Origin: Ignavibacteriota bacterium
GTDB lineage: Bacteria; Bacteroidota; Ignavibacteria; UBA10030; SZUA-254
Direction of reading: 5' to 3'
Length of the DNA stretch: 64,000 nucleotides
Assembly: GCA_025358305.1 (NCBI GenBank)
Contig: JANYJZ010000035.1
Location: forward strand, 62,001 to 126,000
This document shows positions 1 to 22,492 of this stretch, one piece after another. The notes under the pieces are model-generated. The model was not told where the DNA came from. It did no database searches and was given only the letters and a program-made list of their open reading frames with translations. The translations under genes were made by a program, and so were the position numbers. Within the stretch, counting starts at the first letter, position 1, and each line of letters begins with the position of its first letter.

Positions 1-630
1 GGAAGGTTCCATGATCGTCTCGAGTTTCGCCCCGCTTTTCTCGAGGGAGCGGCTCCTGCGGCGCAGGATCCCGCGCTCGGCGGGTGTCAGGCTCTTGAGA
101 TATGTTTCCCAGTCCGCCGGGAGGGGCATCATGACCCGAGCGATCGCCTTCGCGTCATGGCGCAGGTGCACCTTGGCATGACCGACTTCCCGGAGGAGGA
201 GCCCCATCGAGCGGGAAGCCGAGTCGAACCGGAAGAGCGTAATGACGTCGCTCGATCTGCTCTTGAGTTCGTCGGCGCAGAACCTGGCGAAGCACGCAAG
301 GACGTCCGTTTCCCGGCCGGGCCGCAGGAACGGGGCGTACTCGCCGTAGATCTCCAAGGTGCCGAGGAGCCGCAGGCGCCGTAAGGCGAGGGGACCGAGA
401 TGCGTCTCCTCAATGAACGCAGGAAGGACGCCGACGAGCACGCCAGAGTCGCGTACGGTGGCGATCCGGAGCCGGAGATCCGGCCGACGGTAGATCGACC
501 ACCAGTCCGCAAGCCACCGGAACGATTGGAAGATCGTCCCCTTCGCTTCCTCGTGCAGGGCCGTCCACTCCTCGTCGAGCGCCTGGAACTCCGTTTCGGT
601 CGTGATGATATGGAGACTCAGGGCGTTCAT
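1..630 (-). CDS. FemAB/GNAT-like acyltransferase, partial (runs off window)
   Basis: The reading frame is open for all 210 codons from ATG at 630 to the window edge, so the C-terminus is missing. The N-terminal half looks like the FemAB-like/CelD-BcsL acetyltransferase family: FQALDEEW near residue 17 and IFQSFRWLADWW near residue 35 match the equivalent segments (ALEREW, VFQTFEWLRSWW) of the next two paralogues upstream. Its ATG overlaps the stop of the fusion gene by ATGA, which suggests translational coupling in the polysaccharide operon. The likely role is acyl or aminoacyl transfer to a glycan or lipid intermediate. The substrate is unknown. The antisense readings in this stretch are shadows. 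Confidence 0.75.
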   Translation of the reverse strand, partial: MNALSLHIITTETEFQALDEEWTALHEEAKGTIFQSFRWLADWWSIYRRPDLRLRIATVRDSGVLVGVLPAFIEETHLGPLALRRLRLLGTLEIYGEYAPFLRPGRETDVLACFARFCADELKSRSSDVITLFRFDSASRSMGLLLREVGHAKVHLRHDAKAIARVMMPLPADWETYLKSLTPAERGILRRRSRSLEKSGAKLETIMEPS

Positions 631-2795
631 GACCGGGTTGGCCTGCAATAGATGACGTCGTTCGTCCAGCGGTGCCGGATCTTGCGGACGCGGATGTCGT
701 ACCCCATCTCTCGGAGCGAGTGTGCGAACCGTCCCGAGTCGATGTCGTCGGCTTCGGTGTCGATCATCCGCTGGAACGTGATGGAACCGCCCGGGTTGAG
801 CATCGACATGAGCTCCTTGATGAGGCCCTGATGGCTCCTGCTGAGCTTGCCGGTCACCTTGTTGAAGACGTCGTCGAGAATCATGTCGAACCTCGCCCCC
901 TCTTTGCGCAAAGCGCGGATCCCGGTGGTGGCGTCCCCTTCGACGATCGTGACGTCGGGAATCGAGCCGATGAAAAAATGTCGTTTCGCGGCCTCGATGA
1001 TGAGCGGGTCGATCTCGAGAACCGTCACCACGGGCGCGTGATGGGCGCGGTGGAGCATGTGGAGGGTCGTCCCGCCGCCGAGTCCGAGGAGGAGGATGCG
1101 CGCGTGGCGGGGGGTCCCGAACGGACTCTCGGCCATGGCTCCCCAGTACTCCCGTCGCGCTTCCGACCAGTTTCCGCTCGTATAATAGATCGAAAACGTG
1201 CTCTCGCCGAGCACCAGCCGGCGCTCGTTGCCCGACTGGATGACCTTCATCGGTCCGGAATAGGCCGAGGTGCCCTCCTCGAGGACGGTGGCGGGGTGCA
1301 TCTGCAACCGGAGCGTGCAGAGGAGATTATTGATCTTTGCAGACCGGTAGATTCTCGCGAGTTTCTCTCCCAAGGTATACTGGAGGATCGACGAGCTGTC
1401 GTAGTCCTGGAGCAATTCATACGAGTTCGGGCCTGCCGGGTGCCGCGGCTCGGGCGTCGCCACCGTGCGGAGCGGGGTATGTCGCAGGATGAAGAACACT
1501 CCCATCCGGAACAGGTGGAACATCTTCGTGAGGATGTAGTTCGCGAGCATGCCCGGCGTCGGGTTCTTGACGATCCTAATGCGCTTGAACTCGTAGTACT
1601 CACGGATGAGGCGGTTCCGGATCTTCGCCATGAGTTCTTTTGTGAGGAAGAGCATGAACCGCAGTTTGCCCGACGTCCGGGGGGACCGTGCGCGGAAGAG
1701 CCAGTTCTGGCTGTCGACCGCGTCCCACTCTCGGTATTTGTATGCCTCGTCGCCTCGGAGAAAATCGAACACGCGCATCCCTTCGGTGATCCCCGCGACC
1801 ATCGCGAGGGACCGGATGAGAAAGCCGGGGCTGCACCGCATGATCGCCTCGGAAGCATGGGCGTTGCTCTGATACATATAGATGCGATTCCGGTAGTTGA
1901 AACAGAACGTCACTGCAACGGGCGTGCCGTCGGCGTTCAAGAAGAACATCCGCAGCCAGTCGCGCTTGGCGAACTTCGTCGCGATCTCGACGTGGAACGC
2001 CCGGTGCCGCTCGTCGTCGAACGCGCTCGGAAATCCGAGGCTCTTCCAGCGTTGGCCGTGGATGAACGAAAAGTCCTTCACGGCCTTCACCAGGTCGTCC
2101 GTTTCGGAGCGGATGAGCTCAACGTCGGCTTTGAACTGCGCCTGGAGATTCTTCAGCTTTCGACGGAAATTATACCGCGCGGTCGGACTCAGGTCCTGGA
2201 CGAGATGTTCCGCCTTTTCGGGCAGTTCGACGTACGGACAGACGTTGCCGCGGAACTTGTACACATCGATCTCGTGGTTCTGGAGGATCGCCGGCAGAAG
2301 CCGTGCCGTCGCCGTCCGTTCGTTGATGTCCTCCATGTCGAGGAGGTCCCACTCCTCGGTCGTCGTCGTGAGGTGCCGTGCGAAACTCTCCAGCACGCTC
2401 CGCTCGAACCCCGGGAGGATGATCATGTCCGTGTAATCCGAGAGTCCGCATCCCAGGAACTGCGCGTGCCGGGCGACCGGGAGCCCCAGGAGCCTCTCCC
2501 GCCCGATGAACAGGGGGGCGATGCCGACGAGGCGACCATGATGCGTCAAGCGGTGGATCCAGAGCGTCCGGTCAGCGCCGAAATGGGCCCACCAGCTCCG
2601 GAGCCACTCGAACGTCTGGAAGACGGACACCGGCGAACCCTCGACAAGCTCCGACCACTCCCGCTCCAGCGCGTCGAACCCTTCGGCGGAGCGCACGGTC
2701 GACACCGCGCACGCCACCAGCCGGTTCGCCCCGTCAGGGCGCTCCGTCGCGCCGTTCATGGGGCGCAGGTCGGTCATCGCGGGTTGCATCGGCAT
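627..2795 (-). CDS. FemAB-like acyltransferase fused to spermidine-synthase-like methyltransferase
   Basis: A 722-residue two-domain protein. Residues about 30-390 are FemAB/GNAT-like (VFQTFEWLRSWW near 58, FDFLRGDEAYKYREW near 355, the usual end-of-fold signature). A linker of about 100 residues follows. Residues about 500-722 form a Rossmann fold with LLLGLGGGTTLHML at about 568 (SAM-binding glycine loop), VLEIDP at about 592 (acidic ribose ligand) and FDMILDDVF near 636, as in spermidine synthase-like proteins. The DDVF segment resembles the aminopropyltransferase active site, but the substrate cannot be inferred. It sits between the AMP ligase and a third FemAB paralogue. I infer modification of the exported polysaccharide or its lipid carrier. 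This domain pairing is unusual. Confidence 0.8.
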   Translation of the reverse strand: MPMQPAMTDLRPMNGATERPDGANRLVACAVSTVRSAEGFDALEREWSELVEGSPVSVFQTFEWLRSWWAHFGADRTLWIHRLTHHGRLVGIAPLFIGRERLLGLPVARHAQFLGCGLSDYTDMIILPGFERSVLESFARHLTTTTEEWDLLDMEDINERTATARLLPAILQNHEIDVYKFRGNVCPYVELPEKAEHLVQDLSPTARYNFRRKLKNLQAQFKADVELIRSETDDLVKAVKDFSFIHGQRWKSLGFPSAFDDERHRAFHVEIATKFAKRDWLRMFFLNADGTPVAVTFCFNYRNRIYMYQSNAHASEAIMRCSPGFLIRSLAMVAGITEGMRVFDFLRGDEAYKYREWDAVDSQNWLFRARSPRTSGKLRFMLFLTKELMAKIRNRLIREYYEFKRIRIVKNPTPGMLANYILTKMFHLFRMGVFFILRHTPLRTVATPEPRHPAGPNSYELLQDYDSSSILQYTLGEKLARIYRSAKINNLLCTLRLQMHPATVLEEGTSAYSGPMKVIQSGNERRLVLGESTFSIYYTSGNWSEARREYWGAMAESPFGTPRHARILLLGLGGGTTLHMLHRAHHAPVVTVLEIDPLIIEAAKRHFFIGSIPDVTIVEGDATTGIRALRKEGARFDMILDDVFNKVTGKLSRSHQGLIKELMSMLNPGGSITFQRMIDTEADDIDSGRFAHSLREMGYDIRVRKIRHRWTNDVIYCRPTRS

Positions 2796-2810
2796 GGATC
2801 CGTTTCTCTG

Positions 2811-4391
2811 CTATTGACCATTCTTCTTCTGATGCTCCAGAATCGGCGCGGCGAACTCTTCCATGAACTGTTTCCGAACGTTCTCCCGGACGAGCAGCCC
2901 GTCTTGGGCCGAGTCGGGTTCGATCCGGAACACGAGACGAGGGATCTTCGTCCTGTCGACCCGGTCGGCGAGCAGCCGGGAGAGGTCCGACGCGGCGATC
3001 GTCTTGCCGTTCCGGCCGATGTAGCAGAGCACGGGGATCTCCCCGAGGATGCCCGCGGGATCGGGAACCCCGACGACGCAGAGTTCATGCTCCGGGTAGA
3101 GCTCTCGGACGTGCTCTTCGATCTCCAGGGTGGAGAACGTGACCCCGTCCATCGAGATCATCTCGTCCCTTCTCCCGACGAGGTGGAGGTAGCCCCCCTC
3201 GTCGAGAAATCCGAAATCGCCCGTCTTGAACCAGCCGTCGGACGTCTTCGACGTGCGTGTGAGCGGCTCATTGTTCCAGTACCCGACCATGACGTGGCCG
3301 CCGCGGGTGGCGATCTCCCCCGTGGAGCCCGGCTCGAGCGCCGCGCCGCGCTCGTCGAGGACCGCGATCTCCACGTCGGGCGACGCAGACCCTACGGTGT
3401 CGAGTTTGTCGTGTTCTTTTCGGAAGTCGAGGAACCCGGTCCTCGGCGCCTCCGTGCACCCGTAGTGCATGCAGATCCGCGCGTTGGGGAACAGTCCCAT
3501 GAAATGGCGCTTCTGATCCGCCGTCATGGAGGAGCTCCCGAGCTCGATGTGCCGGACTTGGGAGCCGATCCGCTGGACGAGCGATTCCAGGTGCCCGAAC
3601 ATGTTCGTGAACGCGGAGGGGACGACGGAGAACGCATTGGAGCGGTGGCGAAGCATGCTCTGCACCATCGAGACCGGGTCGAGCGGCCCGTCGTTCAGGA
3701 CGACGGTCCCGCCCACGACATGGAGACTCCAGCATTTTGCCAGGCCGAACGAGCGTGTGAGCGGCGTCGTGACGAACTCGCGCGTCTCCGTATTGATGCC
3801 GGTGAACTCGATGATGATCCGCGACGCCCGGATGAGGTTCGTGTGGGAGAGGAGGACGCCGTTCTTCGCCGCCCCGGTCCCCGACGTGTAGAGGATGAGC
3901 GCTCCGTCCCCCGGTTTCGGGGGCCGGATCGGCCGAGCGGTCCGGACGCCGTTGGAGCGGGCCCGAAGGCCGACAGAATGCGCGTAGGGTGATCCTTCCG
4001 CTGAAGCTTCCACGAGGAACATGTCGCATTCGACGATGCTGCGCAAGCGTGGATGTTCGAGAAGATCGGAGGCGCTCGTGACGACGAGCGACGGCGCACA
4101 GTCGGCGACGAGCTGCTGGACGGCGAACAGAGCGGTGTCGTCGGGGATGGGGACGGCGATGCCGCCGATCTTCATGACCGCATACGAGGTCACGAGAAAG
4201 TCGATCTTGTTCCGGAGCACGATGACGACGCGGTCACCGTTCGCGACGCCCTCGTCGGCGATCATCTCGGAGAGCCCGTCCACCGACACCAGGAGTTGCC
4301 GGTAGGTGACGGAGACGTCACCGCAGATGATGGCCGGCGCGTCGGGGTTCCGGCGCGATGCTTTGACAAGATGGTCGTGGACGAGTTGCAT
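2811..4391 (-). CDS. AMP-dependent acyl-CoA/acyl-adenylate ligase family protein, catalytic lysine missing
   Basis: 526 residues from ATG 4391 (MQLVHDHLVKAS). I rejected the longer in-frame start at 4595 because it would overlap the preceding FemAB gene and adds a non-homologous proline-rich tail. It shows the ANL-superfamily core: P-loop LYTSGTGAAKNGV, YGCTEAPRTGF, and WFKTGDFGFLDEGGYLHLVG followed by GRRDEMI and LEIEE. In the last motif, where ligases carry GK before a basic stretch (A10 lysine), this protein reads QDGLLVRENVR, so the adenylate-forming lysine is replaced by leucine. Acyl-CoA ligases of this kind occur in exosortase-associated exopolysaccharide loci together with FemAB proteins. 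Here it may activate an acyl group, act only in the thioester half-reaction, or be non-catalytic. Confidence 0.8.
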   Translation of the reverse strand: MQLVHDHLVKASRRNPDAPAIICGDVSVTYRQLLVSVDGLSEMIADEGVANGDRVVIVLRNKIDFLVTSYAVMKIGGIAVPIPDDTALFAVQQLVADCAPSLVVTSASDLLEHPRLRSIVECDMFLVEASAEGSPYAHSVGLRARSNGVRTARPIRPPKPGDGALILYTSGTGAAKNGVLLSHTNLIRASRIIIEFTGINTETREFVTTPLTRSFGLAKCWSLHVVGGTVVLNDGPLDPVSMVQSMLRHRSNAFSVVPSAFTNMFGHLESLVQRIGSQVRHIELGSSSMTADQKRHFMGLFPNARICMHYGCTEAPRTGFLDFRKEHDKLDTVGSASPDVEIAVLDERGAALEPGSTGEIATRGGHVMVGYWNNEPLTRTSKTSDGWFKTGDFGFLDEGGYLHLVGRRDEMISMDGVTFSTLEIEEHVRELYPEHELCVVGVPDPAGILGEIPVLCYIGRNGKTIAASDLSRLLADRVDRTKIPRLVFRIEPDSAQDGLLVRENVRKQFMEEFAAPILEHQKKNGQ

Positions 4392-4462: not shown

Positions 4463-5836
4463 TCAGGGCCCGGGAGCCGTAGGGTGCGTGCCGGCCCGGA
4501 GCTTTCGGACGAGCCTTTGGGCCCGGAATGCCGCAAAATGGTAGAGCGATGCCGGGAACCGGTGCTCCTGAAGCTGGACGCGCAGGAGCCCCCATTCCCG
4601 CGCCAGGAGGAACCGGAGGTACGCCCGAAACCGGACAATGCGCATCGCACGCCGACGCGCGGCGCTTCTGTCCGCAGTGGGCACGACGAGGATGTTCGCG
4701 TTTCGCCGGACCTCACGCGTGAGCTCGAATTTGTAGCCCTCGTCTCCCCGGAGAAAATCGATGGACCTGATGCCCTGGTTGACGGCGTCGTCCATGAGGG
4801 AGAGGAGAAGCGCGATCCCGGGGCGCCGCTTCGCGGCCGGAGCCTCGTCGTCGAACCCGGAAAGGTAGTCGTAGAGCCGTCCCTCGTAGGCGAACGCAAG
4901 CCTCGCGGCGACGGTCGCGTCGGCAGAGACCGCACGCTTCAGCCGGAGCCATCCGTTTTCCAGGAACGTGTGCGCGGCCGCGCTCTGGAAGGCGGTGAAC
5001 GCGGGACTCGCGAAGAGCCCGGGATAGCCGAGTTTACGCCAGCGCCGCTGGTGGAGCATCATGAGCGCCGTGAGCGCCTCGTCGGCGTCCGCTCGCGACA
5101 TCGGGGACTCCACCGAGAAGAGCGTCCGTTCCTCCGCCGCCTTCTGCGCCTGGCTGAACCGCCGGCGGACGCTCGCGTCGAGCGTCTTGAGATACTCGGC
5201 GACGGACGTCGCAAGCGTCAAGTGCGGACAGATGTCCGCATCGGTCGTCGTGCAGGCGAACCCCGCGTTCTCGAGCGCCGGCACCAGGACGGTGCGCACG
5301 ACACTCGACGGGGATGCATTGAGGAACTCGATCTCGTCGAAGAGGTCCGCGTGCTCCCGGAAGTAGCCGGCGAGCTCCTGTGCGACAGCTCGGGCGTACG
5401 CGCTCCGGGCCAAGATGTCGAGGTAATCGCTCGGACCGTCATCGAGAAACATGCCTGAGGAACGGTTGAATGCCGAGCCGCTTCCGAGGAGGCCGAGGTG
5501 CGCATAGCCGCGACTGCCGAAGAGCCGCATGGATTCCAAAAAGAAGGGGGCGACCCCGACGAGAGTGGGGCCGTCCCGGACGAGGAGCACGTGGAGCGTC
5601 CGGTTCCCCGCCGATCCGATGTGCTTCCACCAGAGGGAGAGCCATTCGTAGGTCTGGTAGATGGTCGCGTACGAATCCTTCGCGACGGCGTTCCATTCTT
5701 CCCGCAAGGTGGGGAATGCGGCGAAGTCGTCCATGACCTCCACCGTCAGCATGGCCGAGCCCGTCCGACCGGCATCCGAGGTTCCGTGAGGCTGAGATTC
5801 CAATATCGTGATATGTGCAGTTGGATCAGGCATCAT
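4463..5836 (-). CDS. FemAB/GNAT-like acyltransferase (CelD/BcsL type)
   Basis: 457 residues from ATG 5836 (MMPDPTAHI), 4 bases after the deacetylase stop. The longer ATG at 5896 would run 56 bases into that gene. The family hallmarks are LREEWNAVAKDS, TIYQTYEWLSLWWKHIG and, near the C-terminus, IDFLRGDEGYKFE. It is a paralogue of the two FemAB-type proteins downstream. FemAB-related proteins transfer amino acids or acyl groups from activated donors to peptidoglycan or polysaccharide precursors. No signal peptide is seen, so a cytoplasmic or inner-membrane-associated role before export by the co-encoded flippase is likely. The substrate is unknown. Confidence 0.75.
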   Translation of the reverse strand: MMPDPTAHITILESQPHGTSDAGRTGSAMLTVEVMDDFAAFPTLREEWNAVAKDSYATIYQTYEWLSLWWKHIGSAGNRTLHVLLVRDGPTLVGVAPFFLESMRLFGSRGYAHLGLLGSGSAFNRSSGMFLDDGPSDYLDILARSAYARAVAQELAGYFREHADLFDEIEFLNASPSSVVRTVLVPALENAGFACTTTDADICPHLTLATSVAEYLKTLDASVRRRFSQAQKAAEERTLFSVESPMSRADADEALTALMMLHQRRWRKLGYPGLFASPAFTAFQSAAAHTFLENGWLRLKRAVSADATVAARLAFAYEGRLYDYLSGFDDEAPAAKRRPGIALLLSLMDDAVNQGIRSIDFLRGDEGYKFELTREVRRNANILVVPTADRSAARRRAMRIVRFRAYLRFLLAREWGLLRVQLQEHRFPASLYHFAAFRAQRLVRKLRAGTHPTAPGP

Positions 5837-5840
5837 GGGC

Positions 5841-6716
5841 TCACGATGAAACGTTCGAGGATTCCGGGGTGTCGAGGACGTCCGCGGAGACCTCATGCTG
5901 GTGCCGGACCGGTCCCAGGATGATCATCCGCAGCTTCCACCGCAGCCATCCGTAGTACTCGTACGGCGTTAGCATGCGCAGGGCGAAGCCAAATGTACCG
6001 ATCGTTCCGCGTATCAGGATCCGGCGGATCTCGAACGGGTCTTCGCCGAACGCTGCCGGCCCGGTGTACACGCCGCAGCCCGTGAAATATCCCGCCTCCG
6101 AGGCTATTTTCTTGATCTCCTCGTTCACCAGCCCGTACGGATAGGCGACCGACCGAACGGGAGCATTCAGGAGGATCTCCAGGAGCATCCTCGAGCGTGA
6201 AAGCTCTTCCCAGAGCTGCTCCTTCGATATCGACGGAAGGGCCGGGTGGCTGAGGCTGTGCGAACCGATCTCATGTCCGGCCGAATGGAGTTCGAGCAGC
6301 TCATGCTCGGTCATGAGGTCCGACGCAGGATGTTCCGAGCCGTGGTCCCAGACGTTGCTCAGGATCTTGGAGTTCGCAATGGCAAAGATCACCGCCTTCA
6401 TGCCGAACTTCTGGAGAAGCGGGTACGCATTCTCGAAGACGTCCTTATACCCGTCGTCGAACGTGATGATGACGGGCTTCCGAGGGAGGTCCAGCTCCCC
6501 CTTGAGATACAGGTGATAGTCGTGGAACGTGATGCTCGTGAATCCCCAGCGCTCCAGCAGCCGGAGGTGCTTGCGGAAATCCGATGCATACACGCACATG
6601 TACTCGTGCTTGCGCGAGTCATCCGGATCCTGGAGCACCCGATGGTAGATCAAGACCTTGATCGCCTTCGGGTGTTCTCCGTTTGCCGACTTCTGTATGG
6701 TTGAGTCAGATTCCAT
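5841..6716 (-). CDS. polysaccharide deacetylase (NodB/CE4 family)
   Basis: 291 residues from ATG 6716. CE4 motif 1 is ITFDDGY (D87, catalytic base, and D88, metal ligand). Motif 2 is GSHSLSHP (H153 and H157, metal ligands). SVAYPYG corresponds to motif 3. The complete metal triad predicts an active N- or O-deacetylase acting on N-acetylhexosamine-containing glycan. There is no signal peptide, so it may act on a cytoplasmic lipid-linked precursor or be exported in another way. It lies between the acyltransferase and FemAB genes of the operon. Deacetylases with FemAB neighbours are standard in exopolysaccharide loci of the exosortase-associated type. Confidence 0.9.
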   Translation of the reverse strand: MESDSTIQKSANGEHPKAIKVLIYHRVLQDPDDSRKHEYMCVYASDFRKHLRLLERWGFTSITFHDYHLYLKGELDLPRKPVIITFDDGYKDVFENAYPLLQKFGMKAVIFAIANSKILSNVWDHGSEHPASDLMTEHELLELHSAGHEIGSHSLSHPALPSISKEQLWEELSRSRMLLEILLNAPVRSVAYPYGLVNEEIKKIASEAGYFTGCGVYTGPAAFGEDPFEIRRILIRGTIGTFGFALRMLTPYEYYGWLRWKLRMIILGPVRHQHEVSADVLDTPESSNVSS

Positions 6717-6731
6717 GGACGATCGCTCGTT

Positions 6732-7319
6732 CTACCCCTTGAGTTGGTGAAGTACGCGTGCAGGAACGCCGGCGCTCACCGTGTGCGGCGGTACATCCTT
6801 CGTGACGATCGCCCCGGCGGCGATAATGGACCCGGTGCCGATCCGGACCCCCTTGAGGATGATGCAGCGGCAGCCGATCCAGACGAAGTCCTCGATGATG
6901 ACCGGTCTGTTGTCCTCGACGCCGTCCTGCGTCATCGCGTGCATGTCCGAATCCATGATGACGACGTCCCAGGAGATCGCGCAGTTGGCGCCGATCTCCA
7001 CTTGGCGGTGAGCGATTACGACGGTGTTCCTGTTGAGATACGTCCCCTTGCCGATGCGCAAGACCGCCCCCTTTCCCACTTCGAGCCGGACGCCCGAATA
7101 GAACTGGCAGTTTCCGACGTGGACCTCCCCTCCGTCGTTGAAGAGCTTGGGAAAGGGAAGACCGCCCGAGACGACGATGATCCCCGGCTTCTTGAACTTC
7201 CGAGCGAACCAGAGACCCTTGAGGTGGTCCATAAGGGAGTGCCGATGGAGCCGGTCCTTCAACCGTCCGATGGTCGACAGCGGCAATGCCGCGTGTGCTT
7301 CATGTGGTGTGGAGGTCAT
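6732..7319 (-). CDS. hexapeptide-repeat (left-handed beta-helix) O-acetyltransferase, WbbJ/maltose-acetyltransferase-like
   Basis: 195 residues from ATG 7319 (MTSTPHEAH), whose ATG overlaps the upstream stop as ATGA; the longer start at 7382 would lie inside the glycosyltransferase. After a helical N-terminus of about 60 residues come hexapeptide repeats ([LIV]-G-x4 type), for example [23 protein letters not shown], then [28 protein letters not shown], split here only by turns. The late GAIVTKDV(P)[12 protein letters not shown] segment is the usual end of acetyl-CoA-dependent LbH acyltransferases. The likely role is O-acetylation of a sugar in the repeat unit. Confidence 0.85.
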
Positions 7320-8512
7320 CGCTTCTTCTCTGAGTGTATGCGTCGAATGAGTTGCTCGATCTGGCGGCCGATCACCGTCCATTCATACTGGGCGTTCATC
7401 AGTGCGAAGCCTTCGGCGGCGAGCTGCGACCGGAGCGCGCCGTCGTTCAAGAGCCGCACCGTCTCGTCGGCGAACGCCTGCGGGGTGTCGGCGATCAGGA
7501 TCGATCTGCCGTGTTCCACGTTGATCCCCTCACAGCCGATGCTCGTGCTGACGATGGGCTTCTGCATCGCCATCGCTTCCAGGGCCTTCAGGCGCGTGCC
7601 GCCGCCCATCCGGAGCGGCACGACGAAGACGCTAGAGCGGTAGACGTACGGCCTCACGTCGTCCACGAAGTTCGTGACGATGACATTGGTATTGGCCCGA
7701 CGGATGATCTCCTTCGACGGGTTCATGCCGACGACGTAGATCTTCGCATCCGGGACCTGCTTCTGAATGAGCGGAAAGATGTTGTCCAGAAAGTAGAGTA
7801 CGCCGTCGCTGTTCGGCAAATACGACAGTGCTCCGGTGAACACGAGGGAATGCGGCTCCGGCGTCTGGCCCGACGGGGCGAAATACGACGCGTCGACGCC
7901 GTTCGGGACGACGTATTTCGCTATCTCGGGGATCTCGTGGTCGAGAATGTCCTTGTCGCGGCTCGAGGTCGTGAAGAGCGCGTCTTGTTTCTGGTAGTGC
8001 GCCAGTTCTTCGTGGTAGAACTTCTTGTACTCGTCGTAGTAGTGGAGCTTCCGAAACGGGGAGTTCGCCTTGAGCCACTGGCGCCGGAAGATGTCGTACT
8101 CCACGTTGTGCGAGTCGAGGATCTTCACCGCGTTCGTACGCAAGGTGTAGCTCCCCATCGAGGAGAATTCCGTCAGGACGATGTCGAAGTCGTTCTCTGC
8201 GATGACCCGGTCGATCACTTTCTGCATCCGATCGCTGTACGCGATCGTGTAGAAGAAGCTGTGCTTCGACCAAAAGGAGAGGACCTGGATGATGCGCTTG
8301 AAGCGCCGCTTCCACCCGTACATGACGACGTGAATGGCCCGAAGCTTGCGGGAGAACTCCGCCCGGAGTTTCGGGAGGTCGTCGTGCATGGAATAGACGA
8401 CCACCGTGACGTCATGGTGCTCCGCCAGCATTCTCATGATGTGATACATGCGCAAGGGACCCCCGGAGATCGGGGGGACCGGCGTATAGGGCATAATGTG
8501 AAGTATCTTCAC
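7316..8512 (-). CDS. GT4-family glycosyltransferase (exosortase-associated-type, Stp1-like)
   Basis: 398 residues from GTG 8512, which overlaps the flippase stop as GTGA. The much longer open frame upstream is only a shadow inside the flippase gene. The N-terminus [18 protein letters not shown] is a GT-B donor-side start. [19 protein letters not shown] and [19 protein letters not shown] are GT4 C-terminal Rossmann signatures with the conserved glutamate of the nucleotide-sugar site. The FTG-x-SYLPN-x-D segment resembles glycosyltransferases found in exosortase/PEP-CTERM exopolysaccharide loci. It probably adds one sugar of the repeat unit on the cytoplasmic face. Donor and acceptor are unknown. 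Confidence 0.85.
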
Positions 8513-10014
8513 GACTTTGGTTCCTTGTGGGGGATGAATGCGCCCTTCAGATTGCGAATCGTGAGAAAGCGCTTGGCGAACGCGATCTCCCCTTCGTTGA
8601 ACGTCCGAAAGGCGACGAGGGCGGTGCAATAGACGGCCGATGCCACAGCGACCTGGGCGATCCACGGTACGTACGGGGTCAGACGCATGAGCCAGATCGC
8701 CGCGCCCATGATGATCCCGCCCGCTAGGGCCTTGAGGGCGACCGGCACGCTCGAGGAGCTGAAGAGCTCCTTCGGAAGGATGTAGATCGCGGTCATCATG
8801 ATGTAGAACTCGGTGATGAGCGTCGCGAGCGCCGCGCCGATGCCGCCGTTCCCGTACTTCAACTGCGTGTAGGGGATCATGAAGTAGTTCAACACGACGT
8901 TGATCGGGATGGCGAAGAACGACGCCGTGGCCCACTGGCGCTGCCGGTCGCATGCGATGATGGCCGTGCCCAAGACGATGTCCACGTAGATGAGGACCAA
9001 CCCGATGCCGAAGATCTGGAGGTTGAGGACCGATGGGCCGTAGTTCGTCAGACCGAAGAAGAGATCGATGATGTTCCGGGAGAACGCATAGACGCCGATG
9101 CTCAAGGGGATCCCCGCAATGAGGATGAACTCCTGGCTCTTTTGCGTCGTGTGCGCGAGCACGAGGTCCTCCTTGCCCCAGAGCTTGGAGAGGACAGGGA
9201 GGATCGCCAGGGAATAGATGCTCGGGAGGAACGCGAGCACGTCGAAGAACCTGTACGACGCCGCGTACCATCCGACCACCTTCTCCGGCGTGAACAGCGA
9301 GAGCATGAGTGCGTCGATGCGGTAGTAGATGACCCCGAAGAGCGACCAGAGGAGATAGGGAACGCCTTCCCGGACCAGGGTGAGGCTTTCGCTCCAGTTC
9401 ACGCTCGGGAGGCGCTGGGCGATCATGCGCCTGGCGTGCTTCACGCAGATGAGGAAATTGATGAATGTGCCGGTCACCATGATGATGGCGACCACGATGA
9501 CGTTCGCTCCGAGCAGGAGCGCGGTCACGCCGAACAGGGAGATGAACATCCGTTCTGCGATCGCGCCCATCGAGGTGTATTGCATCATCTCGTGCCCGAG
9601 GAACGATCCGATGAGCACCGTCTTGGCGGAGAGCCAGAGCATCTCACAGCCCATGATGACGAGGAGGATCTTCACCGGGGTGGGATATCCGATACTGAAC
9701 GCCATCGTCATCATGCAGGTGAAGGACACGGCCCAGATCGCGACCCGGAAGGCGATGGAATTGACGATGATCTGCGGCGCACGGTCCCGATTGCGCGCGA
9801 TGCGCTTCGCGATGCCGTAACGGCCGTCGTATTCGATCGCGATGAGGAAGATGCCGGAGATCATCTGGGCGAGATAGAGCCTGCCGAAGTTCACCGGCCC
9901 GAGATAGCGCGGCAGAAAGATCATGAGGAGGAACGTCGATCCCCATGTGACGATCTGCTGCCCGAACATCGAGGTGGTGCTCCGTGCGACGGATTTGGCG
10001 ATGTCTTCGTTCAT
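8509..10014 (-). CDS. Wzx-like polysaccharide flippase (MATE/MVF superfamily)
   Basis: 501 residues from ATG 10014, again an ATGA overlap with the preceding gene; the ATG at 10047 would intrude into it. It contains 12-14 hydrophobic segments spread over the whole length and the N-terminal pattern FGQQIVTWGSTFLLMIFLPRYLGPVNFGRLYLA characteristic in outline of polysaccharide transporters (split: repeat G and R residues at the first helix turn). It should translocate undecaprenyl-linked repeat units across the inner membrane. Co-transcription with a Wzy-like polymerase and Wzz indicates a Wzx/Wzy-dependent pathway. Confidence 0.88.
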   Translation of the reverse strand: MNEDIAKSVARSTTSMFGQQIVTWGSTFLLMIFLPRYLGPVNFGRLYLAQMISGIFLIAIEYDGRYGIAKRIARNRDRAPQIIVNSIAFRVAIWAVSFTCMMTMAFSIGYPTPVKILLVIMGCEMLWLSAKTVLIGSFLGHEMMQYTSMGAIAERMFISLFGVTALLLGANVIVVAIIMVTGTFINFLICVKHARRMIAQRLPSVNWSESLTLVREGVPYLLWSLFGVIYYRIDALMLSLFTPEKVVGWYAASYRFFDVLAFLPSIYSLAILPVLSKLWGKEDLVLAHTTQKSQEFILIAGIPLSIGVYAFSRNIIDLFFGLTNYGPSVLNLQIFGIGLVLIYVDIVLGTAIIACDRQRQWATASFFAIPINVVLNYFMIPYTQLKYGNGGIGAALATLITEFYIMMTAIYILPKELFSSSSVPVALKALAGGIIMGAAIWLMRLTPYVPWIAQVAVASAVYCTALVAFRTFNEGEIAFAKRFLTIRNLKGAFIPHKEPKS

Positions 10015-10853
10015 GGGTTCCTGTGAATTGATCGCATGGTCGCGCACTCAAGGAGCGCCCGGACCGCAAATTTGGGGAGTGCCAGCATCCTATGCCAGCG
10101 CTGGGGTTCCTGGAGGAGCCGGTAGAGCCATTCGAGTCCCATCCGTTGCATCCAGTGCGGCGCCCTGGTCGTCCGGCCCGCCAGAAAATCGAAGGATCCG
10201 CCGACGCACATCGCAATGCGCACAGGAAGCCTCGGGATGTTGCGGGCGCACCAGAGTTCCTGCTTCGGCGCCCCGTAGGCGACCATGAGGATGTCCGCGC
10301 GGGCATCGGTGATCCGGCGGCAGATGTCGTTCTCCTCCGCAAGGGACGGGGAACCCGCATAACATCCCGCGATGACGAGCCCGGGGTGGCGAGCCGTAAG
10401 CGTTTCGCCGGCAAGCTCGGCGACGCCCGGCTGCGCACCAAGGAGGAACAGCCGTAACCCGCGGCGCATGGCGATCCCCGCGAGCCCGTCGAGTGTGTCG
10501 ACGCCCGTGACGCGCTCGGTGCTCCGGTGTCCGTAGAGGCGCGCGGCGAGCTTCACTCCCGTACCGTCCGGCAGAATGAGCGAGGCGCCGTTGAGCGTCT
10601 CGCGAAACTCCTCCTGGCCCTGCGCGGCGACGATCATCTCGGGGTTCACCGGGATGACGAGATGGCCCCGGCCGGCTGCGGCCATGCGGTCCAGAATGAC
10701 TGCCGTCTCGGCGACGGTGACGGTGTGGACCCGGACCCCAAGGATCGACGTGCTGCGGATCGGCGCTGGAACGCTCGGCGCGCCCTCGGCGGGCTTCCTC
10801 GCGTTCGGCTCGGCGTTCACGGCCGTTGTCTGATATGTGATATTGTGATCCAC
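10011..10853 (-). CDS. WecG/TagA/CpsF-family glycosyltransferase
   Basis: 280 residues from GTG 10853, with GGAG 3-4 bases upstream. Family motifs: IPVNPEMIVAAQ near residue 65, DGTGVKLAARLYG near 95, FLLGAQPGV, MVAYGAPKQELW and CVGGSFDFLAG. WecG/TagA enzymes transfer ManNAc or ManNAcA from the UDP sugar to an undecaprenyl-PP-GlcNAc acceptor, making the second sugar of the repeat unit. This fits the WecA-like initiating transferase encoded divergently at 18810. The first 35 residues are a non-conserved extension. Donor specificity is inferred from family only. Confidence 0.9.
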   Translation of the reverse strand: MDHNITYQTTAVNAEPNARKPAEGAPSVPAPIRSTSILGVRVHTVTVAETAVILDRMAAAGRGHLVIPVNPEMIVAAQGQEEFRETLNGASLILPDGTGVKLAARLYGHRSTERVTGVDTLDGLAGIAMRRGLRLFLLGAQPGVAELAGETLTARHPGLVIAGCYAGSPSLAEENDICRRITDARADILMVAYGAPKQELWCARNIPRLPVRIAMCVGGSFDFLAGRTTRAPHWMQRMGLEWLYRLLQEPQRWHRMLALPKFAVRALLECATMRSIHRNP

Positions 10854-10859
10854 GGTCTC

Positions 10860-11657
10860 CTATGTGGCGAACGGCAGATGCATTTTGAGGCTCGCCGAGT
10901 GCGGCTCGGTGAGAAAGAAGTAGTTCACGCTGATCTCCCCGCTGCGCCAGGTCCGCATGTTCGTGCCGTCGAACCAGAAGGCAGTGTAGCCGGCCTTGGC
11001 AAACGTGGCGAACGTCTGGGCGGCCTTGGAGTTCGGCTCGGCGGGGTTGCCCCATACCTCCATCATCCAGGCGGGCTTCACCTCGTTGAGGAGCCTCTGG
11101 GCGCCGCGCAGAGCGGTGTTCTCATGCCCTTCGATGTCGCATTTCACGAACCGGATCGCCGGCAGTATGTCGTGGAACAGGACGTCGAGCGCCCCAGACG
11201 CGACGGTGACCTTCTCGAACCCCTGGTGGGGGGTCCCGTCCACGATCTTTGCTTCAAAGATGTTCTCCTCCCCGGAGTCGAATAGGGGGATCTCCATCGT
11301 CACCGACCCGGCGGTGTCGGAAACGGCGACGTTGAGGACCCGGACGTTCGTCAGCCGGAGCTTCTTCACGACATACTTCAGGATGCGCGTCGTCGACGGG
11401 ATCGGCTCCACGCTGTGGACGCTTCCCGTGCTCCCGACGAGGTCGGAGAAGAACTTTGTGAAGTACCCCATATTGGCGCCGAGGTCAAGGACGGTGTCCC
11501 CCGGCCGGATAAGATGCTGGATCGGCTTGAGGTCGGCATCGCTGTCGACGGTGATCGTATTGATGACCTTCGCATGCCGGTACTCCTGGATGGCCAGGAC
11601 GAGCCCCTTCGGGAGGGAGCGCTTGAGTAGGCGTTTTGTCGTTGCAAGAGCGTTCAT
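10860..11657 (-). CDS. FkbM-family SAM-dependent methyltransferase
   Basis: 265 residues from ATG 11657. The SAM-binding motif is VLDLGANMGYFTKFF (about residues 57-71), followed by VEPIPSTTRIL, and FVKCDIEGHE near residue 165 is the FkbM-specific IDIEG(H/N)E motif. These enzymes O-methylate sugars or related small substrates in glycan clusters. It lies 6 bases before the WecG gene and 9 bases after the polymerase gene in the same operon. A second, only distantly similar FkbM protein is encoded at 63091. The target sugar cannot be deduced. Confidence 0.85.
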   Translation of the reverse strand: MNALATTKRLLKRSLPKGLVLAIQEYRHAKVINTITVDSDADLKPIQHLIRPGDTVLDLGANMGYFTKFFSDLVGSTGSVHSVEPIPSTTRILKYVVKKLRLTNVRVLNVAVSDTAGSVTMEIPLFDSGEENIFEAKIVDGTPHQGFEKVTVASGALDVLFHDILPAIRFVKCDIEGHENTALRGAQRLLNEVKPAWMMEVWGNPAEPNSKAAQTFATFAKAGYTAFWFDGTNMRTWRSGEISVNYFFLTEPHSASLKMHLPFAT

Positions 11658-11666
11658 GAGTGCCGA

Positions 11667-13244
11667 TCAAGTGTGATACGAAAAAGGATGAACGACGATC
11701 GGCCGGGGAGCCGGCGCTTCGGGCTCCGGTTCCTTGTCGGCGAGCTCGAGGACGGGGAGGAGTCCCATGAGCATTCCGAGCCAGACCATGTTGCGGTAGA
11801 ACGTCAGCTGTAGGTCGTAGTAGGAGACGACGAGCTGAGAGAGAACGGCAATGATCGAGATGATGCAGACCGTCTTGAGGTACGGGTCGGTGAGGTTGGA
11901 AAAGACCGACGACGCCCTGAAGATGTACGAGCCGAAAAAGAGGAGGAACAGGTACATCCCGATGGCCCCCGTCTTCGCGATGAGCCAGAGGATCTCGTTA
12001 TGCGGGATGTAATCCTTCAGCGGAAAGGGGATGTTCGGTAAGACGATCGGCTGGAAGTACTTCCGCCCGAATCCCATTCCCAGGACCGGTTGGGTCCGGA
12101 TGGTGAACGCCAGGTCGTAGTTCTCCATTTCCCGGTACATGTTCGATGAATAGCGCTGCGCGGCCTCCTTCTCGGAAGTGTAGAAGGCCGATCGGATGAA
12201 GATCGCGGGCTTCGCCAGCACGCTCGTGCTATCGCTCTGCCAGTACATCCCCAGGTAGAGCCCGAAGACCACGAGCACGGGGACAAGGCCCTTGAGGAAC
12301 ATCATCTGCTGCCGACGCGGGAGGAGAAGGACGAGCGTTGCCATGCCGACGATAAGAGCGCCGAACGCCGCACGGCGCTGGGCGACGATGAAGCCGACGA
12401 TGAGGGGTCCGAGGAGCCAGAAGATGACCTTGCGCTGCTTCACGTTACCGCCGAAGATGTACGACCCGAGCAGCAGGACGAAGAGCGATGTGAAGAAGAG
12501 CGGGTCCTCGTGGTTCGTCATGACCTCGTAGCCCTCCAGGGTGAACCCGACGGAGGCGAACCGGATGATGCCGATGAACGCCTTGAAGGCGATGGCCGGT
12601 ATGCAGACCCAGAAGAGCGCCTTCACCTGGGCCTTCGTCTGGATGACCTGCGGCACGAAGAACGACATGACGGCGAGATAGAACAGCGCGCGGATCTCCC
12701 AGAGCGCGACGAGGAAGTCGCCCCCCTGGCGCATCCCATTGACGAACGAGAAGATGAGCCAGAGGAAGAACAAGATCGCGGCGGGCGCCACCGGGACGTG
12801 CATGAGCATCATGTCCTTCCGGAAGAGGACCAGGAGGACCCAGATAAAGATAAGAAGAAGGAGATGGAGCTCCATCGGCGTCGCGACGGCGAACGCAACG
12901 TTCGCAAGCGCCGGGAGACTCTTGAGGTTCTGAAAATATTCGACGCCGATGATCGTGGAGGATCCGGTGAACTCGCCGGGGGTGAACTGGTCGAACGCGA
13001 GGACGGAGAACACGAACAAGTAGAGCCCCCAGTCGATCCGGTAGAAGCTCAGAGTGAGTGTCACGATCAGCCCGATGAACGCGATGCTCGGGAAGAGGCT
13101 TCCGCCGGTGTTCACCAGGAGGAACGCAATGATGACCGACCCGATGATCTGATAGAGCACGAGGCGCCGAGCGGCCGCGTCGATGGCCTTGAAGCCTGCG
13201 ACGCTCCGCGCGACGAGATCCTTGATATGGTGCGAGACGGTCAT
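11667..13244 (-). CDS. Wzy/WaaL-type O-antigen polymerase or ligase, polytopic membrane protein
   Basis: 525 residues from ATG 13244 with about 12 predicted membrane segments. A large periplasmic loop lies roughly at residues 320-410, containing YSSNMYREMENYD and QPVLGMGFGRKYF, then PHNEILWLIAKTGAIGMYLF. The (P)HNxxL/W...tGxxG pattern is the Wzy_C signature shared by O-antigen ligases and polymerases. Given the Wzx and Wzz neighbours, polymerisation of flipped repeat units is the likely role. I considered an exosortase because of the locus type, but the Cys/Arg/His exosortase pattern is not visible. Confidence 0.82.
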   Translation of the reverse strand: MTVSHHIKDLVARSVAGFKAIDAAARRLVLYQIIGSVIIAFLLVNTGGSLFPSIAFIGLIVTLTLSFYRIDWGLYLFVFSVLAFDQFTPGEFTGSSTIIGVEYFQNLKSLPALANVAFAVATPMELHLLLLIFIWVLLVLFRKDMMLMHVPVAPAAILFFLWLIFSFVNGMRQGGDFLVALWEIRALFYLAVMSFFVPQVIQTKAQVKALFWVCIPAIAFKAFIGIIRFASVGFTLEGYEVMTNHEDPLFFTSLFVLLLGSYIFGGNVKQRKVIFWLLGPLIVGFIVAQRRAAFGALIVGMATLVLLLPRRQQMMFLKGLVPVLVVFGLYLGMYWQSDSTSVLAKPAIFIRSAFYTSEKEAAQRYSSNMYREMENYDLAFTIRTQPVLGMGFGRKYFQPIVLPNIPFPLKDYIPHNEILWLIAKTGAIGMYLFLLFFGSYIFRASSVFSNLTDPYLKTVCIISIIAVLSQLVVSYYDLQLTFYRNMVWLGMLMGLLPVLELADKEPEPEAPAPRPIVVHPFSYHT

Positions 13245-13442: not shown

Positions 13443-14264
13443 TTACGAGGGTTTATTGCTGTCGAACCGATTGAACACAAAACCAAGGACCTGGCGTTCG
13501 TTGATCTGGTGGAACACGCCGTTGATGTCCTCCTGCTTCGTCTGGCCCGTATTGACGACGATGATGAGGCCCTGGAGCTGGTTTGCGTAGAGGACCGGAA
13601 ATCCCCCCGTGTTGAGCGACGGCATGTCGACGATGACGAACTCGAACTCCTGTTCCAGGGAATAGATGACGTCGCGGAACGCGGCCAGCTGGTCGAGACT
13701 CAGCAGGGGGTGGAGGACCGGCTGCGCCGCGAGCGAGGAAAAGGGCGCGGAGGAGACGACGCCGTCCTGGATCTCCGTGAAGTGCTCGGCGGTCACGACG
13801 GAGAGGTTCTCGATCTGGGTCCGCGTCACGTGGATGTTGCTGGTCCTCAGGGCCTCGGCGAGGCCGGGGCTGTTCGTGACGCCGAAGATCTGGTGGAGCC
13901 GCGGGGCGTAGACGTTGAGGTCGACGAGGACCGTCTTCTTGCGCGATCCCATCGCGAGCGACACGGCGAGATTGCAGGCGATGAGCGTCTTGCCTTCCCC
14001 CTGGTTCGGGCTCGTGACGCCCAGGGACATGATGACATTCTCCTGGCTCCGGGAGAGGAACGAGTAGTTGAACGCATTATAGAACTGGAACTTGATGATG
14101 TCGCCGTCGATGTGCGCCCCGATCTCGGGGTTGACAACGATCTGCTTGATGACCCGGACAAGCTTCGTGTTCTCGGAGCCTTCGGGCTGCCGGGCTTCAT
14201 CCATGGGATCGCCGACCTGTTGTGATGGCATTGATTTCATCGTCTCCTTGTCGTCGCGCGTCAT
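13443..14264 (-). CDS. CpsD/CapB-like P-loop ATPase (BY-kinase-type), partner of Wzz
   Basis: 273 residues from ATG 14264, ATGA-overlapping the Wzz stop. Deviant Walker A is VTSPNQGEGKT (K92). Walker A' is TVLVDLNVYAPRLHQIFG, and Walker B is FVIVDMPS near residue 218. It is the cytoplasmic half of a bacterial tyrosine-kinase pair, which regulates chain length and export through Wzz. The C-terminus (GFVFNRFDSNKPS) has no tyrosine cluster and Walker A' reads DLN rather than the common DAD/DGD, so autokinase activity is doubtful. It may be only an ATP-dependent switch. Confidence 0.82.
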   Translation of the reverse strand: MTRDDKETMKSMPSQQVGDPMDEARQPEGSENTKLVRVIKQIVVNPEIGAHIDGDIIKFQFYNAFNYSFLSRSQENVIMSLGVTSPNQGEGKTLIACNLAVSLAMGSRKKTVLVDLNVYAPRLHQIFGVTNSPGLAEALRTSNIHVTRTQIENLSVVTAEHFTEIQDGVVSSAPFSSLAAQPVLHPLLSLDQLAAFRDVIYSLEQEFEFVIVDMPSLNTGGFPVLYANQLQGLIIVVNTGQTKQEDINGVFHQINERQVLGFVFNRFDSNKPS

Positions 14265-15610
14265 TCTTGCCCTTCCCGGCGGCCGTCGGTGATGAAGGCG
14301 ATGACCGGTTTTTGATACACTTCGACATCGCGCGGCGTCCGGATCGTCGTGTCGAGCATTTCCTTCAGGATGACCGTGACGATGCCGAAAAAGAGGCCGA
14401 TCATGAAGCCCGCGAAGATGAGCTGGGGACGGTTCGGTTTCGAGGGTTTGACCGGCATGGCGGCCGGATCGATGATGATGAACTGGTTCGTCCCGCCCGT
14501 GCCGAGGTCGCGCGCCGTCTTGGCCTGCTCCAGTTTCACTTTAAGCTCGTCATAGAGCTTCCGGTAGATCTCATAGTCGGATTCGTTCCCCTGCTCGACG
14601 TGCTTGCTGACGGACGATTCCTTCAGGCGGTCGACGAGCTGCGCGCGCCTCTTTTCCAGATCGTCGCGCTTCGGCTGCTGCTTCGTAAGCTCTTCCTCGA
14701 TGGCGTTCTGGATCCGCTGGAGGAGGGCGAGGAGCTGGTCCTCGGCCTTGATGAGGTCCGGATACATCGGCTTGTATTTCCGGGAATAGTCGTCGTATTT
14801 CGCCATGAGATCGCGGAACTCGGTGACGAACGGGATGTCGGCCCGCTGGAGGTCATAGAGGGTCTGCTTCCCGGTGTCCGTCTTGATCGCTCCCGGGAAC
14901 GTCTTGAGGATGTCGAGGTCGTGCTGATACGCCTTTCCCTTTGTCTCGAGCTCGTCGATCTGGTGCTGGTAGGTCTCCACCTGGGTGTAGAGCTGGATGC
15001 TTTCCTCCGGCATGACGTCGACGCGGGACCGAAGCCGGCTCACAACGAGCTGCTGGCTCGACTCGAACTTCTGCCGGATCTCTTCCAATTTCGTCTCAAA
15101 GAACGTTACCGCCCGTTCGTTCCGTTGGCCTTCCACCCGAAGAACCGTCTGGATGAAGAGGTTGGAGAGCGTCTCCGCCCCGAGCTTCGCACGGGCGGGA
15201 TCGACGTCGGTGTAGGTGATCCTGAACGAATCAGATCCTCGGCGTTCGATCTCGATGTTCTTTTCGACCTGGTCCACGAGGGCCTGCTCATCCCCTTCCG
15301 AGAGCTGCCCGTGGGCCAGGCCGAGGCTGTCGACGAGCTTACGGAGCGTGAGACGGCTGTAAATGATCTCATTGAAGGTCCGGAGGCGATCCTCCGAGGC
15401 GATGGCCACGGCGACCTCGAACCCGATGAGCGGGTTGAGGATCTCGTCGCGCTGGACGAGGATCGTGGTCGTCGACTCGTACTTGTTCGACAGGAGGAAC
15501 GCGCCGATAGCGCAGAGCACCGTCACGATGACGGCCGGTATGAGGAAATGGCGCCTTCGGTGGCGCAGCACCGCGATGATTTCGTGAAGAGTGAGCTGAG
15601 CAGAGCGCAC
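14261..15610 (-). CDS. wzz: Wzz/GNVR-family polysaccharide chain-length determinant
   Basis: 449 residues from GTG 15610, preceded by AAGGA 8 bases upstream. The N-terminal membrane helix is about residues 22-42 (HFLIPAVIVTVLCAIGAFLL). A long periplasmic coiled-coil-rich domain follows. The proline-rich VKPSKPNRPQ precedes a second helix (about 396-418) and a short cytoplasmic tail. This is the co-polymerase that sets chain length and contacts the CpsD-like ATPase encoded next. It is the first gene of the minus-strand operon, about 45 bases below the predicted start of the sigma-54 promoter. The gene symbol is by family, not a confirmed orthologue. Confidence 0.88.
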   Translation of the reverse strand: MRSAQLTLHEIIAVLRHRRRHFLIPAVIVTVLCAIGAFLLSNKYESTTTILVQRDEILNPLIGFEVAVAIASEDRLRTFNEIIYSRLTLRKLVDSLGLAHGQLSEGDEQALVDQVEKNIEIERRGSDSFRITYTDVDPARAKLGAETLSNLFIQTVLRVEGQRNERAVTFFETKLEEIRQKFESSQQLVVSRLRSRVDVMPEESIQLYTQVETYQHQIDELETKGKAYQHDLDILKTFPGAIKTDTGKQTLYDLQRADIPFVTEFRDLMAKYDDYSRKYKPMYPDLIKAEDQLLALLQRIQNAIEEELTKQQPKRDDLEKRRAQLVDRLKESSVSKHVEQGNESDYEIYRKLYDELKVKLEQAKTARDLGTGGTNQFIIIDPAAMPVKPSKPNRPQLIFAGFMIGLFFGIVTVILKEMLDTTIRTPRDVEVYQKPVIAFITDGRREGQE

Positions 15611-15681: not shown

Positions 15682-15821
15682 TGATGGCCCTCGGCAACTG
15701 CCCCAGAAAATAACAAATGCGGACATTGCCGGATGTGTGCTGCGTCTCTTTTTTGGGAATGCGCGGAGAATATCTCGATGTGTGTAGAAAGTACGCACGC
15801 ATACCGCACCATTACGGCACA

Positions 15822-15838
15822 TGTGTAACTCTTACACA
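15822..15838. promoter_or_regulatory. palindrome, candidate activator-binding (UAS) site
   Basis: TGTGTAA-CTC-TTACACA is a perfect 7-bp inverted repeat with a 3-bp centre. It lies about 140 bp upstream of the minus-strand sigma-54 promoter and about 200 bp upstream of the plus-strand one, a usual distance for enhancer sites of NtrC-family activators. A weaker similar element, TGTGTA-GAAAG-TACGCA, lies at 15781-15797. Binding by a specific protein is inference. Confidence 0.5.
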
Positions 15839-16038
15839 CTATCGGGGGAACGACGAAACCATTTGCCCTGTACGGATTTCTCCAACTTTTCTTCACGGAA
15901 TAAATCACGAAAATCATGCATCTCCCCGCCTAATCAGGCGCGTAGTACGGTCTTAGAGCCGAGCATCACCTTGGTCGATCTTAGATGGGGGCTCGGAAAC
16001 AATGAATTTGGGGGACTCGGGCGGACGTCGTGGCATTC

Positions 16039-16054
16039 TGGCACAAACTTTGCC
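16039..16054 (+). promoter_or_regulatory. sigma-54 (-24/-12) promoter of the Wza operon
   Basis: TGGCACAAACTTTGCC matches the sigma-54 consensus in all conserved positions except the last (C instead of A/T), with GG-N10-GC spacing. The start site would be near 16065, leaving a leader of about 112 bases before ATG 16178. It faces away from the matching promoter at 15666-15681. Confidence 0.72.
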
Positions 16055-16177
16055 TTTTCTCTGCAGTACAAGCCCGTAGGGATGTCCGACTCTCTCTCAC
16101 GTGAGGCTCGCTCACACACGAGCCCCCCTTGCGGTCCTGCGCATGCACCGATGCATTTGAAACCATACAAGGATTGG

Positions 16178-16903
16178 ATGAATTTCATGAAGACGATTCT
16201 TCTCTGCGTCTCACTCCCCGCGCTTCTTCTGGCGACGGCGGTCTTCTCCGGATGCGGCTCGAACGAGATCGCGAAGGAGAACCTCACGCAAATCATGCGC
16301 TCGGGAAGCCGGCCGATCCAGGCCGAGGCGCAGTCCGATAATTACGTGATCCGGCAAGGCGACCAGGTGCAGGTATCGGTCTGGGGATATCCGGAATTCA
16401 ACATGCAGTCCGTCGTGAAGGAACTCGGCCAGGTCGCGATGCCGCTCCTGGGCGACCTGACGGCGGCGGGACTGACGAAGGATCAGTTCACGCAGCAGCT
16501 GACGAAGAAGCTGACGGAATACATCCAGGGCGAGATAAAGCTGACGGTCACCATCGTCAGCGCGACGCCGCAAAAGGTCACCGTGCTCGGCGAGGTCATG
16601 CGCCAGGAGAACTACCCCCTCGCGTCCGACGCGACGCTCCTCGAGGTGCTCTCGACGGCAGGGGGGACCACGCCGGAGTCCGATCTGAGGAATATCAAGA
16701 TCTTGCGCAACGGCCTGAATCGCCAGCCGATCGAAGTGGATCTGACCTGGTACATGGAGAACGGCAACATCGAGGCCATTCCCGTCATCCGGCCCGGGGA
16801 CACGGTCTTCGTCCCGAAGCGTTCGAACATCATCCGGGAGCTGTCCGATTTCATGCGCGACGCGATCTTCATCTTCGGATTCTTCCAAGTCTTCAATCAC
16901 TGA
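16178..16903 (+). CDS. wza: Wza-type polysaccharide export lipoprotein
   Basis: 241 residues from ATG 16178 (a second ATG at 16187 is possible, with AAGGA at 16169-16173). The signal peptide MNFMKTILLCVSLPALLLAT is followed by FSGC, a lipobox with a non-standard F at -3, making it an outer-membrane lipoprotein. The poly-export domain starts at YVIRQGDQVQVSVWGYPEF, and one SLBB-like domain follows (KVTVLGEVMRQENYPL, LLEVLSTAGG). GDTVFVPKR is a typical end, and a short hydrophobic amphipathic tail could insert as the outer-membrane helix. It exports the polymer made by the divergent operon. Its stop is 6 bases before the PorV-like gene. Confidence 0.88.
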   Translation: MNFMKTILLCVSLPALLLATAVFSGCGSNEIAKENLTQIMRSGSRPIQAEAQSDNYVIRQGDQVQVSVWGYPEFNMQSVVKELGQVAMPLLGDLTAAGLTKDQFTQQLTKKLTEYIQGEIKLTVTIVSATPQKVTVLGEVMRQENYPLASDATLLEVLSTAGGTTPESDLRNIKILRNGLNRQPIEVDLTWYMENGNIEAIPVIRPGDTVFVPKRSNIIRELSDFMRDAIFIFGFFQVFNH

Positions 16904-22135: not shown

Positions 22136-22492
22136 CCATTCGGCCACTGCCGTTCCAGGACGCTTCTCCACCTTTCACCCCTCACGTTGTACACTCAATT
22201 CTCCCCCTGCCGCCCCACGCTCACCACCATCGCGCTACGCCCCCCTTGCGAACCAGGACTTTGTGATCTGACATCGACGGTGTTCGGCCGAAAAGCGCCG
22301 ATCAAGTGTTTCCCGTCACGCTAAAATAATTCGATGGTGCGACTTTTTGAAGATCCGGTGATGCATATCACATGATTGTTGGTTCCTCTTGATCGCGTTC
22401 GTATCCTGTGTCCGAACGGGTAAATCGAGCAGACAGATGTACTCGCAGTGCGTGCTCGGATTCATGAAAAGCGACAATCGAAGGAGCAGACA
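22136..22492 (+). other. intergenic region upstream of first GH18 gene (357 bp)
   Basis: I see no gene here. The last 170 bases are more AT-rich than the surroundings and should hold the promoter of the GH18 gene, but no convincing sigma-70 or sigma-54 element can be picked. Confidence 0.5.

Follow-up and report, generated by a model that had tools for sequence, protein, structure and literature searches.

Frame and domains of the fused gene

The locus analysed here raises the question of whether a FemAB-like acyltransferase and a spermidine-synthase-like domain are genuinely joined in one protein and, if so, what such a protein would do. The gene lies on the minus strand at 627-2795 of the window, by which we mean the whole 64,000-nt stretch under analysis. 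A sequence-only reading had proposed that a FemAB/GNAT fold and a SAM-type Rossmann domain are combined in one polypeptide, which would perform two consecutive modifications on one glycan or lipid intermediate. The structural part of this proposal was borne out by a single open frame of 722 amino acid residues (ATG start, no internal stops), by the Pfam matches and by the predicted folds. The description of the gene as a FemX-like double-GNAT part joined to a spermidine-synthase-like, putative methyltransferase domain draws on the open frame, Pfam, third-position GC (GC3), the AlphaFold (AF2) model and structure matches. In this model of the fusion, which was built from a 13-row alignment, two folded parts flank a low-confidence linker (residues 438-493; 1317-1484, minus strand), identified as flexible from pLDDT values below 50 and from the junction alignment. 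FemX and spermidine-synthase folds were matched by the two folded domains, and both domains were matched by sequence and by fold, far beyond chance.

The N-terminal FemAB/FemX-like domain (residues ~30-400; 1596-2708, minus strand), was placed by PF13480, the FemX structure match and its orthologous clade. The C-terminal spermidine-synthase-fold domain occupies residues 494-722 (630-1316, minus strand), and in the alignment to separate homologues its homology begins at about residue 471, slightly earlier than the start at about 500 previously assigned. On the opposite strand, a 1106-aa open frame (672-3992, plus strand) runs across the fusion and ligase genes; showing no evidence of a gene, it was taken as a composition shadow of the GC-rich codon positions in the minus-strand genes.

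The N-terminal half has a predicted FemX fold

Acetyltransf_6 (PF13480) was found in Pfam at residues 206-353, with an E-value of 1.8e-26 and 93.4 bits against a curated cut-off of 22. When the predicted model of this half was compared with known structures, FemX (6snr) was matched with a VIA Z of 23.1 over 309 aligned residues (3.5 Å), Weissella FemX with a Z of 22, and FemA was matched too; Foldseek matched FemX-type structures at 4.8e-12. The modelled N-terminal half thus has the tandem GNAT (FemX) fold, spanning residues 29-385 and common to the FemABX/PF13480 proteins such as Weissella FemX and S. aureus FemA. FemABX proteins use peptidoglycan precursors and aminoacyl-tRNA, whereas the window protein adds a second catalytic domain, and its acceptor would be other than a peptidoglycan precursor because the gene sits in an EPS operon. 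It resembles the HfsK-type PF13480 EPS acyltransferases in having a locus of the adhesive-polysaccharide type that includes a deacetylase, as HfsK is found with HfsH (PMC5362036).

The C-terminal half reads as a methyltransferase

The proposal had left open whether the second half transfers a methyl or an aminopropyl group. According to Pfam, both Methyltransf_25 and Spermine_synth matched residues 562-676, each weakly and just above the cut-off. Folded alone, the C-terminal half came closest to spermine/spermidine synthases (Z 17.0 to 3c6m, 207 aligned, 4.2 Å), and further matches were METTL13 (Z 14.4) and the glycopeptide N-methyltransferase MtfA (Z 14.0). When the profile of this half was used instead, the METTL13 C-domain ranked first in the PDB (E 1.2e-7) and spermidine synthases came after it.

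The two motifs named in the sequence-only reading were located in the alignments. Motif I is GLGGG at residues 571-575 (1071-1085, minus strand) and has no D/E where spermidine synthases carry it in GxG[D/E]G; this acidic position is Gly or Ala in all six members of the subfamily, five of which carry GLGGG and one GLKAG. LDDVF at residues 640-644 (864-878, minus strand) aligns with the start of D-S/T-S/T-D-P (Post II), whose first Asp is kept in 5/6 members and whose second is replaced, by Asn 645 here and by Tyr or Asn in the others. E594, the glutamate expected to hold the ribose of SAM, is invariant in 6/6. The subfamily thus combines a non-acidic motif I with a conserved SAM-ribose glutamate, as in the METTL13-C type.

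Spermidine synthases require the acidic residue of GxG[D/E]G for binding of decarboxylated SAM, and a spermidine-synthase-like protein without it has been shown to be a methyltransferase (PMC10349129). A true aminopropyltransferase that loads aminopropyl onto a sugar amine would agree with the closest folds and with the one retained Post II Asp, but it is highly improbable, given the acidic residue missing throughout the subfamily, the lost second Post II Asp, and scores far under every NCBIfam equivalog cut-off (PRK04457, 34.4 vs 304 bits; speE, 16 vs 250). Moreover, no AdoMet decarboxylase (AdoMet_dc, E <= 0.01) was detected in this genome or in seven related genomes (0/8), whereas the same model was positive in 8/14 control genomes. 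Aminopropyl transfer was accordingly dropped from the proposal. Because the acidic residue is absent, AdoMet_dc was not found and METTL13 is the best PDB match, the C-terminal half is read as a probable SAM methyltransferase. The METTL13 C-domain trimethylates the N-terminal amine of eEF1A (PMC6109062). This domain and the fungal 7TM NHMT share with the C-terminal half a GLGGG-type non-acidic motif I, the SAM glutamate and the spermidine-synthase-like fold, and in NHMT the domain is likewise joined to an unrelated N-terminal module (PMC10349129). The known spermidine-synthase-like methyltransferases act on protein N-termini, whereas the C-terminal half is encoded in an EPS operon.

The EPS operon around the fusion

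The fusion is the penultimate gene of a minus-strand run that was read as one EPS operon. In operon order, the run comprises genes for a Wzc-type chain-length protein (14261-15610) and its ATPase (13443-14264), together 13443-15610, a Wzy-type polymerase (11667-13244; PF04932), an FkbM methyltransferase (10860-11657), a WecG/TagA glycosyltransferase (10011-10853; PF03808), a Wzx-type flippase (8509-10047; PF01943), a GT4-type glycosyltransferase (7316-8518), a hexapeptide O-acetyltransferase (6732-7382), a polysaccharide N-deacetylase (5841-6716), the stand-alone FemAB-like acyltransferase FemAB_2 (4463-5896; PF13480, with its own orthologous clade in the tree), an AMP-forming acyl/aminoacyl ligase (2811-4391), the fusion and FemAB_3, all on the minus strand. 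The deacetylase is PgaB/IcaB/NodB-like (PF01522, E 5.9e-29; against the PgaB model, E 1.8e-27 but below the cut-off). The ligase (PF00501, E 1e-58) has orthologues in the clusters of relatives; its frame reaches 4595, and the ATG at 4391 is the likely start. FemAB_3 (1-630) is cut by the window edge (whole gene, L033:13417-14649). Its start ATG and the stop of the fusion overlap as ATGA, and on this strand it is followed, beyond the window, by a gene for a family-2 glycosyltransferase. A Wza-type export protein is encoded divergently (15821-16903, plus strand; PF02563). The deacetylase and FemAB/GNAT genes therefore share one polysaccharide operon, in the manner of HfsH and HfsK. A carrier protein was not found among the operon genes; the single clear ACP of the genome is on a different contig.

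Near the operon, two adjoining genes (22448-26245 and 26609-29638) encode secreted family-18 glycoside hydrolases with Por secretion tails, possibly degrading EPS or chitin. A 3484-aa ORF (L033:2-10453) was observed just downstream of the genes neighbouring the operon in this genome, and one of similar size (3481 aa; G005 L039:103-10548) occupies the same place in a relative.

Separate halves in relatives and the origin of the fusion

Close homologues of both halves were encountered within the same family and order, in every case as separate genes. Several genomes of the family encode the N-terminal half (FemAB_N) alone, at 43-55% identity, and the C-terminal half is a stand-alone gene at 25-38% identity in G003 (two copies), G007, G020 and G030. 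The window's three FemAB genes each fell into a separate orthologous group when 44 FemAB domains were placed in a tree; support was 100/100 for the clade of FemAB_N, which spans 7 genomes, and likewise for that of FemAB_3. In G007, FemAB_N, the C-half gene and FemAB_3 follow one another in this order with 4-nt ATGA/GTGA overlaps. The sequence-only reading would have been refuted by halves that were always separate and unlinked in relatives: separate they are, but not unlinked, being encoded in the same EPS cluster.

The fused form is known from one MAG only. No second fused copy was recovered by a whole-protein search of 98 genomes of the order, and no other fused example among 391 genomes of the class, 395 of the phylum and 72,556 plasmids. 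A search of genome contigs returned only the two known relatives and four generic spermidine-synthase-like or methyltransferase genes without FemAB neighbours. The C-half profile had strong members in only five of the 391 genomes of the class and generic relatives only elsewhere in the phylum. No literature on a FemX-methyltransferase architecture was found either, and neither described nor sampled proteins yielded an example of this build.

A singleton of this kind might be a sequencing or assembly artefact: a one-base indel in the linker could have put two overlapping genes, arranged as in G007, into one frame. As shown by the junction alignment, stand-alone FemAB orthologues end at about residue 446 and stand-alone C-half homologues begin at about 471; one indel within ~446-471 would be invisible to homology because the stand-alone orthologues leave this stretch unaligned, and frame +2 has a TGA just ahead of the in-frame TTG codon at 461. 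Nevertheless, we regard such an artefact as quite improbable. GC3 is 0.78-0.92 in every 50-codon block, and since it continues through the linker, the signature of a frameshift is absent; the linker frame is open and ordinary, there is neither an N run nor a contig edge, the contig is 170 kb long, and the genome (42 contigs) is rated 100% complete. The frameshift or assembly join that would have undone the sequence-only reading thus left no sign in GC3 or in the frames.

FemAB fusions of other kinds also occur in related clusters, which argues against an artefact as well; FemAB domain fusion is common in these EPS clusters. FemAB + ATP-grasp fusions were observed at G005 L039:16326-19232, G008 L041:15915-18626 and G012 L046:3352-6009. 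In G040, a 1214-aa ORF (L050:9186-12830) contains two FemABs, a hexapeptide acetyltransferase region and a phosphopantetheine-binding domain and directly precedes an AMP-ligase gene, which points to carrier-bound acyl donors for FemABs of the G040 type.

Genes for ComA (phosphosulfolactate synthase), a ComB-type phosphatase and RraA-like proteins adjoin FemAB/ATP-grasp genes in the EPS clusters of relatives (G008 L041:8913-9758, 9771-10487 and 10605-11345; G012 L046:1850-2698; G003 L037:7634-8413). ComA and ComB in G008 and RraA in G003 were confirmed by Pfam, and the G012 gene was assigned by its similar N-terminus only. These genes suggest a sulfolactate-like or related acid as an EPS substituent in the relatives.

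Because the halves are separate in relatives, follow one another with an ATGA overlap in G007 and are fused in one genome, it is best explained as the product of a lineage-specific fusion that joined two neighbouring, translationally coupled genes of EPS decoration, one for a FemX-like acyltransferase and one for a spermidine-synthase-like methyltransferase. The build is new to the collections that were searched, but it amounts to a simple fusion of neighbours within a known kind of pathway.

A proposed decoration pathway

In the scheme that we propose, the deacetylase (5841-6716) would act on a lipid-linked hexosamine in the EPS repeat unit and so free an amine, and an amino or carboxylic acid would be activated by the ligase (2811-4391). 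The freed amine would then receive an acyl or aminoacyl group from the FemAB domain, for which acyl-CoA, acyl-ACP, aminoacyl-tRNA and aminoacyl-AMP are candidate donors, and the C-terminal domain would use SAM to methylate, probably at an amine, either the same sugar or the newly attached acyl group. Decoration would take place in the cytoplasm, ahead of Wzx flipping and Wzy polymerisation, and the fusion would secure equal dosage and proximity of the two domains and create no new reaction. By analogy with known systems, the fused protein most likely acylates and methylates one lipid-linked repeat unit, and the consecutive modification of one intermediate by both domains, as originally put forward, is plausible.

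The gene order in relatives bears on this coupling. The C-half gene lies immediately upstream of FemAB_3 in 5/5 of the genomes that have it, but adjoins FemAB_N in only 2/5, and FemAB_N occurs without a detected C-half in four genomes (G005, G008, G012 and G013), the cluster of G012 being split over contigs. No convincing remnants of a C-half were found in the clusters that have none. In G013, a short N-terminal piece of FemAB_3 (L043:10649-10930) was observed after FemAB_N, with no C-half gene; the FemAB_N / C-half / FemAB_3 arrangement appears to have decayed there. Since it is FemAB_3, not FemAB_N, that always accompanies the C-half, methylation may be part of the FemAB_3 step. The methyltransferase domain would then serve FemAB_3 on a different substituent, with an incidental fusion to FemAB_N and uncoupled chemistry. 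We consider this rather unlikely: FemAB_N, the C-half and FemAB_3 are all encoded in one operon, and for this reason a shared substrate is still likely. Fusion of neighbouring genes, together with decoration of the EPS repeat unit as outlined above, is in our judgement the probable explanation as a whole.

Relation to known systems and implications

In the Caulobacter holdfast, acylation by HfsK has been suggested for the amines that HfsH exposes (PMC5362036), and in Nod factors NodB deacetylation, NodS N-methylation and NodA N-acylation on one glycan are established (PMC5080398). The scheme proposed here shares with NodB, NodS and NodA a deacetylation, followed by methyl transfer and acylation, within one glycan-decorating gene set. 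NodS and NodA, however, are separate proteins of other families, whereas the window enzyme is one fused polypeptide, whose action on the same amine would be hypothetical. That a deacetylated EPS amino sugar undergoes Nod-factor-like paired N-(amino)acylation and N-methylation by a single bifunctional enzyme, giving an N-methyl-N-acyl hexosamine polymer, is a decidedly doubtful extension; if true, this enzyme would represent the first fusion of FemX to a methyltransferase and an EPS decoration of a new kind.

In EPS loci of the PEP-CTERM/exosortase-A kind, a NodB-type deacetylase adjoins a FemAB-related gene, as in the window; such a pair is present in the first polysaccharide locus of Rubrivivax gelatinosus (PMC3684757). 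The ligase of the window resembles TIGR03098, also of this kind, although its matches are below the curated cut-offs of such models. Unlike these loci, the window contains a methyltransferase domain as well as FemAB genes of three groups.

The fusion links two functions and is, taken by itself, a detail of one lineage. It suggests an annotation correction, namely that proteins labelled 'spermidine synthase' in glycan clusters may be methyltransferases partnering FemAB acyltransferases on EPS. The FemAB batteries, ATP-grasp genes and phosphosulfolactate genes of the relatives point to unusual acylated or aminoacylated polymers.
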